The notes beneath the pieces were generated by a model that ran no database searches, was not told the DNA's origin, and saw nothing but the letters and a program-made list of their open reading frames with translations. This document shows positions 1 to 8,833 of a stretch of DNA of 64,000 nucleotides, in pieces. The translations under genes were made by a program, and so were the position numbers. Position 1 is the first letter of the stretch. Each line of letters starts with the position of its first letter. This DNA comes from Opitutia bacterium (GTDB taxonomy: Bacteria; Verrucomicrobiota; Verrucomicrobiia; Opitutales; UBA953), in contig CANIUQ010000003.1 in the NCBI GenBank assembly GCA_947470855.1, forward strand, positions 1-64,000, given 5' to 3'.

Positions 1-102
1 CAACTCAAGTGATTTTGAGTGGTTAAAAATGATGAAACGGGAAGCTCCTTTTGTTGAGCCTGCAGCGGCTAGTAGCACGCTGGAGTCTAAGAAGACTCTC
101 AC
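1..102 (-). CDS. PIN-domain (VapC-like) toxin, N-terminal fragment truncated by the left window edge
   Basis: Not in ORF track. Minus-strand translation from GTG at 102: MRVFLDSSVLLAAAGSTKGASRFIIFNHSKSLEL, open to the edge; LDSSVLLAA is a PIN N-terminal signature; start overlaps the antitoxin stop (GTGA). Confidence 0.7.
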   Translation of the reverse strand, partial: MRVFLDSSVLLAAAGSTKGASRFIIFNHSKSLEL

Positions 103-338
103 TTTTTCTTCTTTTTATAAGTTTTGAAGTCAGCCTCGTCGTTAATGATCCAGCGATCTATGGATTCTTTAGGGATGTCACGAATAGGCATGGCTATGGC
201 TGATTGCATTGTAACGACTCCGTTTTTTTCTTCGAGTACAACCATGGGCGAGGCGAGACGATTGAGTTTTAATTTGATACGAAGTTCGGGTGGTAGCGTG
301 AGAGTGCCACGTTTGCTTACTGGTAAGGTGTAGGTCAT
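99..338 (-). CDS. AbrB/MazE-like antitoxin
   Basis: MTYTLPVSKRGTLTLPPELRIKLKL... swapped-hairpin AbrB motif; internal ATG at 338 chosen because the upstream part of ORF 99..656 is low-complexity repeat translation. Confidence 0.7.
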   Translation of the reverse strand: MTYTLPVSKRGTLTLPPELRIKLKLNRLASPMVVLEEKNGVVTMQSAIAMPIRDIPKESIDRWIINDEADFKTYKKKKK

Positions 339-394: not shown

Positions 395-533
395 CGAGAT
401 ACAGTGCAAAGGTGCAAATCGGAGCGGAGCTCCTGTGCAAAGGTGCAAAGGTGAAACGAGAAGGGGGCCAGTGGAAAAGAGGAAGAGGGGACAAGAGATA
501 CAGTGCAAAGGTGCAAATGTGCAAAGGTGGAGG
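395..533. repeat. TGCAAA-module intergenic repeat cluster A, one copy with a hairpin insert
   Basis: Repeated CAGTGCAAAGGTGCAAA units at about 402 and 501; hairpin GGAGC-GGA-GCTCC at 421-433. Confidence 0.85.
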
Positions 534-555: not shown

Positions 556-2337
556 TTATTTGGAGTCGAGTTCGAGCCAGCGGGAGAGGGCTTGGCTGTG
601 TTGTGATTCGATTTCCTGTAATCGTTTTTGAATTTGTGACGCCTTGAGGGGCCCATCTTTATACAACTCTGGATCAGCTAACTGAGCCGTAAGGTCAGAC
701 TGCTCTTCTTCTAACTTGGCAATTTTAACAGGCAAATCGACGAGGTCCTGTCTTTCCTTGTTGTTCATCTTCGCAGGTTTTTTGGTAGGTTCAGATGAAG
801 GGGGATTTGTTTTGTTGGCGAGTGCAGGACGTTTGTTGCGTTCGACTTCGCGACGCCAATCGGAATAGCCACCGACATGTTCGGAGATGATGCCGTTGCC
901 TTCGAAAACTAAAGTACTGGTGACGACATTATCGAGGAAATCACGGTCGTGACTCACGATGATGAGGGTGCCTTTATATTCGACGAGTATGTCCTCGAGA
1001 ACATCGAGAGTTTCGGCATCGAGGTCGTTGGTAGGTTCGTCGAGAACGAGAACGTTGGCTGGTTTGGTGAAGAGTCGAGCGAGTAGGAGGCGATTGCGTT
1101 CGCCACCGGAAAGAACTTTGGCTTTTGAACGAGCGCGGGTGGGTTCGAAGAGAAAGTCTTGGAGGTAGCTGATGACGTGGCGGGAGCGACCTTGGACTTC
1201 GACCTTGTCAGAGTCACCCGCCAGATTTTCGGCGACGGTGAGTTCATCGTTTATGAGATCGCGCATTTGGTCGAAGTAGACCACTTCAAGTTTGGTACCG
1301 AATTTGATTTGACCGCTGGTGGGAGTTAGTTGGCCCAGTAAAATTTTAACCAGCGTGGTTTTGCCCACTCCATTGGGTCCGATGAGTCCAACTTTATCGC
1401 CGCGATTGAGTCGCAGGTTGAATTGTTGAAAAATTGTGGTGCCGTTGGGGTAGGTGAAGTTGAGGTTTTCGGTTTCGACGACGCGTTCGCCTGAGCGATC
1501 GGCTGAACTAATTTCCATTTTAGCAGCGCCGGTGGCAGTGCGCATTTCTTGTCGCTCGGTGCGCATGATTTTAAGGGCTTCCATACGGGCGTTGGATTTG
1601 GTGCGACGGGCGCCTGGACTGCGGCGAGACCAGGCTTCTTCTTGGGCGAGTTTTTTGTCGAACGCAGCGCGTTGGCGTTCTTCGGCGACGAAGAGTTCTT
1701 CTTTGCGGATCAGGTAGGTGTCGTAATCGCAGGACCAGCTTGTGAGTTTACCGCGATCGAGTTCGATGATGCGGTTGGCCATGCGGCGGAGGAATGCGCG
1801 GTCGTGGGTAACGAAGAGAAGAGGAATTTTTTCGGCGAGGAGGAATTCTTCCATCCAAAGAATGGATTCTAGATCCATGTGATTGGTTGGTTCGTCGAGG
1901 AGAAGTAGGTCGGGTTTGGCGGCGAGGGCTTTGGCGAGGAGGCAGCGTCGTTTTAAACCACCGGAGAGTTCATTAAAAGTGCGGTCAGCTGGAAGGCCGA
2001 GTCGTTCGATTAGGTCGTCGACTAGGACATCGCGTTCCCAATCTTCTTCTGGTCCGTCGTGGCGCAGTCCTGATTCCACGATGGAGCGAACCGTACCAGG
2101 GAGGTCATCGGGGATTTCTTGGGTGAGGCGGGCTTGGGTGATGCCACTCGGGTGAGTGACTGTACCTGAGTCGGGTTGCATTTCACCTGCGGCGATGCGC
2201 ATCAGTGTGGTTTTGCCGGCGCCGTTACGTCCGAGTAAGCAGACGCGTTCGCCTTCTTCGATTTGAAGGTTGAGGTGATCGAGGACGGCGGGTCCGCCGA
2301 AGTTAACGCAAATGTCGAGGAGGCTTAAGAGGGCCAT
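556..2337 (-). CDS. uup: ABC-F family ATP-binding protein, Uup-like
   Basis: Two ABC cassettes (GRNGAGKTTL, LSGGLKRR, LLLDEPTNHMD; GPNGVGKTTL, LSGGERNR, LVLDEPTNDLD) plus C-terminal coiled coil; start at MALLSLLDICVNFGG, excluding the repeat-encoded extension. Confidence 0.9.
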   Translation of the reverse strand: MALLSLLDICVNFGGPAVLDHLNLQIEEGERVCLLGRNGAGKTTLMRIAAGEMQPDSGTVTHPSGITQARLTQEIPDDLPGTVRSIVESGLRHDGPEEDWERDVLVDDLIERLGLPADRTFNELSGGLKRRCLLAKALAAKPDLLLLDEPTNHMDLESILWMEEFLLAEKIPLLFVTHDRAFLRRMANRIIELDRGKLTSWSCDYDTYLIRKEELFVAEERQRAAFDKKLAQEEAWSRRSPGARRTKSNARMEALKIMRTERQEMRTATGAAKMEISSADRSGERVVETENLNFTYPNGTTIFQQFNLRLNRGDKVGLIGPNGVGKTTLVKILLGQLTPTSGQIKFGTKLEVVYFDQMRDLINDELTVAENLAGDSDKVEVQGRSRHVISYLQDFLFEPTRARSKAKVLSGGERNRLLLARLFTKPANVLVLDEPTNDLDAETLDVLEDILVEYKGTLIIVSHDRDFLDNVVTSTLVFEGNGIISEHVGGYSDWRREVERNKRPALANKTNPPSSEPTKKPAKMNNKERQDLVDLPVKIAKLEEEQSDLTAQLADPELYKDGPLKASQIQKRLQEIESQHSQALSRWLELDSK

Positions 2338-2370: not shown

Positions 2371-2604
2371 GTGCAAAAGTGCAAAGGTGCAAAAGTGGAG
2401 ACAAGAAGTGGGCGAGGGCGGCAAGAGGCAGTGCAAAGGTGCAAACGTGCAAAAGTGGAAAGGTGGGGAAGCGGGTGACGGGTGACGGGAAGGGGGAGAG
2501 AGGCAAAAGGCAGTGCAAAAGTGCAAATCGCGACGGGGTCGCTGTGCAAATGTGCAAAGGTGGGGAAGCGGGTGTCAGGTGTCGGGTGACGGGTGTCGGG
2601 AGGG
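2371..2604. repeat. TGCAAA-module intergenic repeat cluster B plus GGGTGAC/GGGTGTC tandem heptamers
   Basis: GTGCAAARGTGCAAA units at 2371, about 2430 and about 2510; hairpin GCGAC-GGG-GTCGC at 2530-2542; G-tract runs at 2473-2496 and 2584-2604. Confidence 0.85.
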
Positions 2605-2671: not shown

Positions 2672-3952
2672 TTAGTGGAATTTTTCGAGGCGGGAGATTT
2701 CGGGGAAGCGCCAGTGGACGATGCCCATGACTCCAAATACGGCGAGGCCACCGAAGACGACAGAGTTTACTGTTCCGAGGAGGCGTGCAGCGAGACCGGA
2801 TTCGGCCATGCCGAGTTCGTTTGAGCAACCGATAAAGACGGCGGTGACGGCGGAAACGCGTCCCATCATTTCGGGAGGGACGCTTGTTTGCAGAATGGTT
2901 TGTCGGATGATGACATTTACGGCGTCGGCAGCACCTGAAATAAATAGGAAGAGAAAAGAGAAGATGAAGGCTGCTTGAAGGCTGAGTCCGAGAGCGTTGG
3001 CGATTTGTATCGAAAGACCAAAGCCGATGATACAGAGTCCAAAAATGGCGAATGAGCCGTAAAGAGAGCGTCCCACGTGTTGAAAAGAAGGGCGAAAGAG
3101 GAGGAAGATTGACATGATGACAGCTCCGCAGGAGGTGGCGGCGCGGAGGAGTCCGAATCCTAATGGTCCGACATTGAGCATTTCGGCGAAGATGGGAAGA
3201 AGTGCGACTGCTCCGCCGAATAAAACCGCAAACAGATCGAGCGTGAAAGCACCGAGCATAGCGCGTTGGCTGAGCATGAAGTGTATGCCCGTTCGCAAAC
3301 TTTGCAGGATTGGTTCGGGTTGTCGGGATTGGAGTTCGTGGGAGGTTTTGATGCTGAGATTGTTGAGTAGTGCTGCGATGAAGAGGATTGAGGAGACTGA
3401 GTAGGCGAGGTATTCGCCGTTGAGCCAGATGAGTAGACCTGCGAAGCCTGGTCCGATAACGGAGGAGAGTTCGAAGAGTGTGTTGCGCCAACGAACTGCG
3501 CTGGGGATTTGGGAACGCTGAAGAATTTCGGCGATCATCGCTTGGCGGGCTGTGGTGAGGAAGCTACGGGCGAGACCACCGCCGATGACGACGCCGTAGA
3601 GTAGGCAAAGTTTGAGCCAAGAAGTGGCGATGAGACTGGGGAGAAAAAGGAGAAGCGAGAGCAGGAGCATCACCGTGAGTGATGTGCAAGCGATGAAGCG
3701 TCGGTTATTTTTATCGGCGACATGTCCGGCGAAGAGGACTGAGCTGACGAAAGGAATCACTTCGGCTAGACCGACTGCGCCGAGAGCGAGAGCAGCGTTG
3801 GCGTGATTGGCTTTGGTGATTTCGAAAACTTGCCAGGCGATGGTGACCGTTTGGATTTGAATGGCGAGGGTACCTAGCACCAAGGCTCCGACGTAGAGTC
3901 GGAACGCAGGCAGACGCATGGGAGAGTCGTCATCGGTCTGAAAAAGGTGCAT
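2672..3952 (-). CDS. MFS transporter (EntS/DUF894-like)
   Basis: About 12 hydrophobic segments; RLYVGALVLGTLAIQIQTVTIAWQVFEIT near the N-terminus. Confidence 0.8.
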   Translation of the reverse strand: MHLFQTDDDSPMRLPAFRLYVGALVLGTLAIQIQTVTIAWQVFEITKANHANAALALGAVGLAEVIPFVSSVLFAGHVADKNNRRFIACTSLTVMLLLSLLLFLPSLIATSWLKLCLLYGVVIGGGLARSFLTTARQAMIAEILQRSQIPSAVRWRNTLFELSSVIGPGFAGLLIWLNGEYLAYSVSSILFIAALLNNLSIKTSHELQSRQPEPILQSLRTGIHFMLSQRAMLGAFTLDLFAVLFGGAVALLPIFAEMLNVGPLGFGLLRAATSCGAVIMSIFLLFRPSFQHVGRSLYGSFAIFGLCIIGFGLSIQIANALGLSLQAAFIFSFLFLFISGAADAVNVIIRQTILQTSVPPEMMGRVSAVTAVFIGCSNELGMAESGLAARLLGTVNSVVFGGLAVFGVMGIVHWRFPEISRLEKFH

Positions 3953-4118
3953 GTGCAAAGTGATATGTGGGTGCAAATAGATGGACGGTCAAACTCGCTT
4001 AAAAATCTTGTTTTTAATCGTCATTCGGTTTAGAAGTTTCGCATCCTTACCCCTAAGGTTTCATGGAGTTATTCGACTCCTCTCTTTACCTTTAACCCCA
4101 AATTTATAATAAATAATT

Positions 4119-8274: not shown

Positions 8275-8675
<401 letters not shown>

Positions 8676-8761
8676 AATCAGCGGAATATGAAGGAGTGCG
8701 TGGCGGGGGACTTTTTTCAAGCGAATAAAAGTCGAGGCTAGGGAATGAAATTCGTTCGAAG

Positions 8762-8833
<72 letters not shown>

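Follow-up and report, generated by a model that had tools for sequence, protein, structure and literature searches.

The window analysed here, a 64,000-nt stretch of DNA, contains two very small hairpins, copies A and B, whose flanks are identical and whose stems differ. This locus raises the question of why two such copies differ in their stems and still pair perfectly: is the structure selected, is it regenerated, or do such palindromes move? The two hairpins, reported by a first-pass annotation together with units that have the same flanks and no hairpin, are present in the sequence, and hairpin-less units lie at three places. The features are as follows.

404..453, + strand: element copy A, GTGCAAAG GTGCAAAT C, stem-loop, T GTGCAAAG GTGCAAAG GTG; two octamers, hairpin, two octamers, the standard layout
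421..433, + strand: hairpin of copy A, GGAGC-GGA-GCTCC, 5 bp with a 3-nt loop (sequence and predicted fold)
2513..2562, + strand: element copy B, GTGCAAAA GTGCAAAT C, stem-loop, T GTGCAAAT GTGCAAAG GTG (sequence and layout)
2530..2542, + strand: hairpin of copy B, GCGAC-GGG-GTCGC, 5 bp with a 3-nt loop (sequence and predicted fold)
503..525, + strand: hairpin-less array GTGCAAAG-GTGCAAAT-GTGCAAA, with a T junction, as copy A would read minus its hairpin
2371..2393, + strand: hairpin-less GTGCAAAN array of 3 units
2431..2453, + strand: hairpin-less GTGCAAAN array of 3 units
99..338, - strand: small protein gene, its 5' end nearest copy A and about 70 nt away
556..2337, - strand: ABC-F type ATPase gene between copies A and B (named from motifs)
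2672..3958, - strand: major-facilitator-type transporter gene beyond copy B (named from sequence; orthologues found)

The core of copy A (412-441) reads GTGCAAATC-GGAGC.GGA.GCTCC-TGTGCAAA and that of copy B (2521-2550) reads GTGCAAATC-GCGAC.GGG.GTCGC-TGTGCAAA, with the same flanks of 9 nt and 8 nt. There is no third match to this frame in the window with up to 3 mismatches allowed. Shuffled windows contained a mean of 0.18 frame matches, and two matches were seen in 0 of 100 shuffles. Other short tandem words occur in the same intergenic regions, both here (2461-2620) and at loci L058, L218, L221 and L234; they include GTGACGG/GTGTCAG, GTGGAAAR, GTGGACNA, GAGTACNG, GGGGTA and more. Several of these words hold a self-complementary tetramer (TGCA, GTAC or CTAG), so that each strand could fold on itself. 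Elsewhere in the window, two 73-nt copies that are 95% identical (8603-8675 and 8761-8833) have the look of a duplicated pair of tRNA genes, minus strand.

That only two hairpin copies are visible holds within the window but not outside it. A search of the 1.36-Mb host genome with TGCAAATC-N(5-30)-TGTGCAAA, a pattern that leaves pairing open, found 7 exact copies of GTGCAAATC-N13-TGTGCAAA, and all seven inserts are 13 nt long and form perfect 5-bp hairpins. Five of the stems are of the GCGAC/GTCGC type, one of them with a double change (GCGAT/ATCGC), and two are GGAGC/GCTCC. A further form, GGTAGCT-A-AGCTACC, lies inside a GTGCAAA array adjoining a tRNA gene. At a contig end of the host genome (L060:3717-4022; G000:C20), a tRNA gene has a second copy of its 3' end about 180 nt downstream, accompanied by a GTGCAAA/GGTAGCT-A-AGCTACC element, an arrangement that, judged by its sequence, resembles an attachment site or a tandem duplication.

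Across the genus we counted 413 exact-frame copies, with matches in 39 of 55 genomes and 0 to 30 copies per genome; since exact octamers were required, these are minimum counts. The MAGs that make up this set are in many cases split into more than 100 contigs, and host-genome contigs end in or near these repeats. The first-pass annotation had named unpaired genomic copies, or confinement to the two copies in the window, as grounds against its reading; the seven paired inserts and the hundreds of copies in the genus are neither. Hairpin and array counts per genome climb together (Spearman 0.91), and several relatives have neither arrays nor hairpins. In the rest of the order we found only isolated, apparently chance matches, in which none of 14 inserts of at most 18 nt had a 4-bp stem; the three out-of-genus inserts that reach a stem of at least 4 bp are 29-30 nt long. 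When 85,462 species were scanned with GTGCAAA-N16-GTGCAAA, the array-embedded TC-stem-T hairpins among the titled matches listed were all from Verrucomicrobiota/Opitutae (L109, L126, L147 and L162). The other matches listed looked like chance, and one more TC-stem-T array locus (L176) lies outside the titled set. The hairpin family is specific to one genus of uncultured bacteria.

The pairing of the stem was assessed in 185 non-redundant sites with 74 distinct inserts, gathered by the octamers alone from stretches around the repeats, most of which had been picked via the TC...T pattern. With the stem position held constant (2 nt ahead of it and 1 nt behind it), full Watson-Crick pairing was present in 57 of the 70 distinct inserts of 13, 14, 16, 17 or 18 nt, as against about 0.4 expected from shuffled inserts. 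For the 16-nt inserts, of which 27 are distinct, pairing holds in 97% of cells and double changes occur in 4 of 5 pairs; there are 27 double-changed cells compared with a shuffled mean of 8.1, a value reached in 0 of 500 shuffles. Kinship among sites, many of which are related through duplication, inflates these counts, but controls in which the partner column was slid by 1-3 positions retain the kinship and all lost the signal. Chance palindromes are ruled out by the number of paired inserts, by the covariation and by the unpaired out-of-genus inserts. The stems, of 4-7 bp with loops mostly of 3 nt, fall into GGAGC, GGCC, GCGAC and GCGGC families. Compensatory change between copies had been read as a sign that the structure is selected or regenerated, and the pairing, the covariation and the nearly frozen stems described below strongly support that reading. 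The GGR loop of the two window copies is not a rule: loops of TGC, TAC, TTC, GAA, AGA, GAT, CTT and others were found elsewhere.

In the repeated unit, a pair of GTGCAAAR octamers and TC precede a stem of 4-7 bp, whose loop is short and usually 3 nt long, and T and another pair of octamers follow it; this 2+2 layout is present in 139 of 180 sites. To the left, conservation stands at 93-97% per position in unit -2 and is lacking in unit -3. To the right, the second octamer stays conserved apart from its C (73%), and of unit +3 just GTG is kept. The sharp ends and the 2+2 layout indicate a discrete unit of about 50 nt rather than a hairpin dropped randomly into a long array. RNA fold prediction lengthens the hairpin by TGCA:TGCA pairs between octamers, with z-scores of -1.2 to -2.1. 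This longer hairpin was rejected: its outer helix is disrupted, almost uncompensated, in 67 of 180 sites, and its inner helix hardly varies, so there is support for the central stem only.

Comparison of homologous sites shows nearly frozen stems and free loops. In 32 homologous pairs, differences were found at 24% of loop sites (22/93), 16% of flank sites and 3% of stem sites, and stem differences fall to 3/278 once one exceptional pair is left out. This pair is a block of about 260 bp, duplicated on either side of an mscL-like gene in the host genome (L058:120-373 and 825-1077). In this recent duplication the flanks differ by 2.8%, and the copies also differ by an octamer indel and a 7-nt indel. 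Here the stem has been exchanged whole, GCGAC-GGA-GTCGC for GGAGC-GAA-GCTCC, with three pairs changed on both sides. It is the one clear exchange among the 32 pairs, and no other joint change of both arms was seen in them.

The element is also present at some sites and missing from their homologues (present at L236:3499 and missing in L083; present at L220:1808 and missing in L071). The segment missing from L083 is bounded by direct octamer repeats, the pattern expected from slippage. The copy A site, upstream of the same gene in sister genome G038 (94% nucleotide identity to the host over the neighbouring gene), reads GTGCAAAGGTGCAAAAGTGCAAAGG without a hairpin. This genome has 49 octamer pairs and 0 exact hairpin copies; its octamer pairs are enriched in the T junction (10/49), as would be expected where a hairpin had been lost or was still to be gained. 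Within GTGGGC/GTGGAC words, G038 has a different palindrome, GCGAGC-GAA-GCTCGC, along with close variants (L328:771-793 and L334:939-959). The earlier likening of the hairpins to palindromic mobile elements is borne out in the sense of a dispersed family whose homologous sites differ in presence/absence and, in one case, by exchange of the whole stem, a pattern that loss and gain would fit alike, but not for transposition as such.

The positions of the copies bear on what the element might do. Of the 185 sites, 155 are intergenic, 27 are too near a locus edge to be placed and 3 lie inside genes called with a hexamer model made in this analysis. In the high-GC relatives, 128 of 142 copies have the 5' side of their GTGCAAA strand towards the nearest gene, whichever way the gene runs, and the GTGCAAA strand reads away from it at a median distance of 66 nt. 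These 128 copies comprise 69 at gene 3' ends, which run in the gene sense, and 59 at gene 5' ends, which run in the opposite sense. Among copies with the nearest gene on the left, the GGAGC type prefers 5' ends and the GGCC type 3' ends (31:13 vs 22:43, in related loci that are not independent). Other simple repeats are known to share this polarity (PMC4692102), so it need not mean function.

Several features of the surrounding regions were seen alongside. In four apparent polysaccharide gene clusters (L218, L221, L226 and L235, from genomes G041, G042, G043 and G029, respectively), the element is found at many gene boundaries, with the GGCC type after genes and an inverted GGAGC type before the next gene. 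Elements at these boundaries may be a substrate for gene shuffling. Intergenic regions of the high-GC relatives (L218-L237 and L288-L327) have a convergent G-skew, which falls smoothly from about +0.27 by the left gene to -0.27 by the right gene and is partly seen also without GTGCAAA arrays, whatever the gene orientation. Gene 5' leaders in these relatives look pyrimidine-rich rather than Shine-Dalgarno-like.

Selection on RNA might maintain the stems if the element were a transcribed terminator, mRNA 3'-end stabiliser or leader structure. Conserved stems with free loops would fit this explanation, as would the position of about half of the copies (69/128) behind gene 3' ends in the sense direction. 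However, the other 59 lie upstream of genes in the opposite sense, the fold z-scores are modest and the outer helix is often broken. There is no T run after either hairpin in the window, the terminator scan was empty at these sites and Rfam covariance models gave no match to the element, so that a terminator or a known RNA family lacks support. We consider an RNA element improbable, and a specific RNA role is so far unsupported, with the element sitting at both gene ends in opposite sense. Another idea is that the octamers and hairpin are read as DNA, by a protein that binds or marks a boundary at gene ends. The invariant 2+2 frame, the conserved stems and the polarity of 128 of 142 copies regardless of gene direction could all be explained in this way, but G038 has no exact hairpin copy, several relatives lack arrays and hairpins altogether, and the stem sequence differs wholly between families; such a site seems quite improbable. 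It is also possible to dispense with selection, the palindromes being regenerated by intrastrand templated repair (quasi-palindrome correction) that changes both arms together. Such correction would account for perfect stems of changing sequence and for the rarity of half-changed stems. Correction alone would nevertheless let both arms drift together, whereas stems at homologous sites are nearly unchanged (3/278 vs 16% in flanks) with no joint change besides the whole-stem exchange, and we regard this explanation as decidedly improbable.

A further candidate is a REP/REPIN element mobilised in trans by a resident RAYT (Y1 tyrosine transposase). The palindrome is short and extragenic, its stems are family-like, and the REP-type transposase that had been proposed as a thing to look for was indeed found: RAYT-like Y1 transposase genes of about 140-190 aa are present in the host genome and many relatives (PF01797 profile). 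Their flanking repeats, however, are of another kind. The host gene (L238, G000:C21:18000-21808; 1401-1817, minus strand) is flanked by REPIN-like inverted palindromes with a GTAG tag, GTAGGGACGCCACTCCGTTGGCGTCC...GGACGTCACGGAGTGACGTCCCTAC, and not by the GTGCAAA element, which has no such tag. In the flanks of 13 RAYT genes that we inspected, GTAG-type palindromes adjoin the gene, mostly as inverted pairs, with the relatives' palindromes differing; GTGCAAA arrays lie farther from the gene in a few. Across the 55 genomes, no association between RAYT and hairpin was detected (RAYT in 26/39 hairpin-bearing vs 8/16 hairpin-free genomes, Fisher p = 0.36), a test that MAG incompleteness blurs; 13 of the 39 hairpin-bearing genomes have no detectable PF01797 match and 8 of the 16 hairpin-free genomes have one. 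The GTAG flanks and the lack of association rule out membership in a RAYT-mobilised REP family, and mobilisation by RAYT is very unlikely, being already largely refuted. A retro-element was likewise rejected, as the reverse transcriptase RVT_1 is absent from 54 of the 55 genomes and present in 1.

The comparisons show that copies A and B belong to a discrete, genus-specific family of dispersed hairpin repeats of about 50 nt. We propose, with about even confidence, that such repeats spread, swap stems and are lost through recombination, template switching or slippage and that their stem is kept by selection. The octamer frame would supply short homology between copies, and the hairpin itself may favour fork stalling, so that replication template switching, short-homology recombination or slippage could act without a dedicated transposase or reverse transcriptase. 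Selection would keep the stem intact by acting on the hairpin formed in single-stranded DNA or RNA. Spread by octamer homology is favoured by elimination of RAYT and reverse transcriptase, and a trans-acting enzyme may be the mover instead. Some observations sit less easily with this proposal: conversion that homogenises whole elements should homogenise the loops too, yet loops vary most; the clear whole-stem exchange is a single case; and presence/absence could reflect pure loss rather than gain. More speculatively, and in our view with a rather low probability, the constant octamer frame may be a docking site for a hairpin cassette, short palindromes being exchanged whole between loci, at both gene ends, by an undescribed process (a dedicated enzyme or structure-driven template switching) with selection on the folded stem.

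The family bears on the open question of how bacterial repeats of the smallest size can spread when no transposase is known for them. It offers a clean comparative system of sharply bounded units across 55 related genomes, each with 0 to 30 exact copies, almost no reverse transcriptase, very different stem and loop rates, and resident RAYTs whose own distinct REPs are an internal control. With a catalogue of the whole genus, selection and structural regeneration could be tested directly against each other.

The octamer pairs gave no match when the literature was searched for them, and comparison with known small repeats was made by structure and position. Di Nocera et al. 2013 (PMC3733652) described GTAG- and CGTC-tagged REPs, including those of Opitutus terrae, as extragenic palindromes of 20-40 bp in many copies, mostly near gene ends, with families defined by complementary stem changes and by loop changes. 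The GTAG superfamily has an unpaired GTAG or close variant at one hairpin end; CGTC REPs have an unpaired CGTC tag, a stem of 8-9 bp and a loop of 4-5 nt, and also occur without a dedicated transposase (PMC3733652). The GTGCAAA element resembles GTAG REPs as a short, largely extragenic palindrome with many copies and complementary stem variants, but it lacks the GTAG tag and has fixed octamer arms, with GTGCAAATC and TGTGCAAA flanking the hairpin in nearly all copies; true GTAG REPs coexist with it in the same genomes. It differs from CGTC REPs in its shorter stems, its mostly 3-nt loops and the lack of a CGTC tag. Like the REPIN/RAYT system (Bertels and Rainey 2011, PMC3116915), it is a dispersed, hairpin-forming, non-autonomous repeat in a genus with RAYT genes, but it is not at RAYT gene ends and its presence does not follow RAYT. 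The element is not a member of the GTAG or CGTC REP superfamilies or of the RAYT-linked REPINs. Another parallel is with the G-rich heptamer repeats of Xanthomonas and Nostoc (Rehm et al. 2015, PMC4692102), which lie closer to the 5' neighbouring ORF whichever way it points. These share with our element the polarity and a preferred unit number, four in the heptamers and 2+2 here; they are GGGNATC quadruplex repeats, for which the accessible text describes no inserted covarying hairpin.

The best reading is that these tiny, dispersed hairpin repeats form a new family, REP-like and closest in style, by description and not by sequence, to the small dispersed repeats (SDRs) of Nostoc. The latter are reportedly hairpin elements of 21-27 nt with compensatory changes, are said to be often embedded in tandem heptamer arrays and recently mobile, and are reported to have had an RNA intermediate suggested for them. 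The GTGCAAA element is likewise a very small hairpin with compensatory stem changes inside a tandem frame, here of octamers (GTGCAAAN on both sides). As to recent mobility, presence/absence and one stem exchange were observed at homologous sites, a pattern in which loss and gain are indistinguishable. As regards an RNA intermediate, reverse transcriptase is absent here from 54 of the 55 genomes. The GTGCAAA element also differs from Nostoc SDRs in belonging to another phylum, in having an octamer frame that is itself part of the repeated unit, with its 2+2 layout and sharp ends, and in carrying a stem that comes in several families and is exchangeable as a block.
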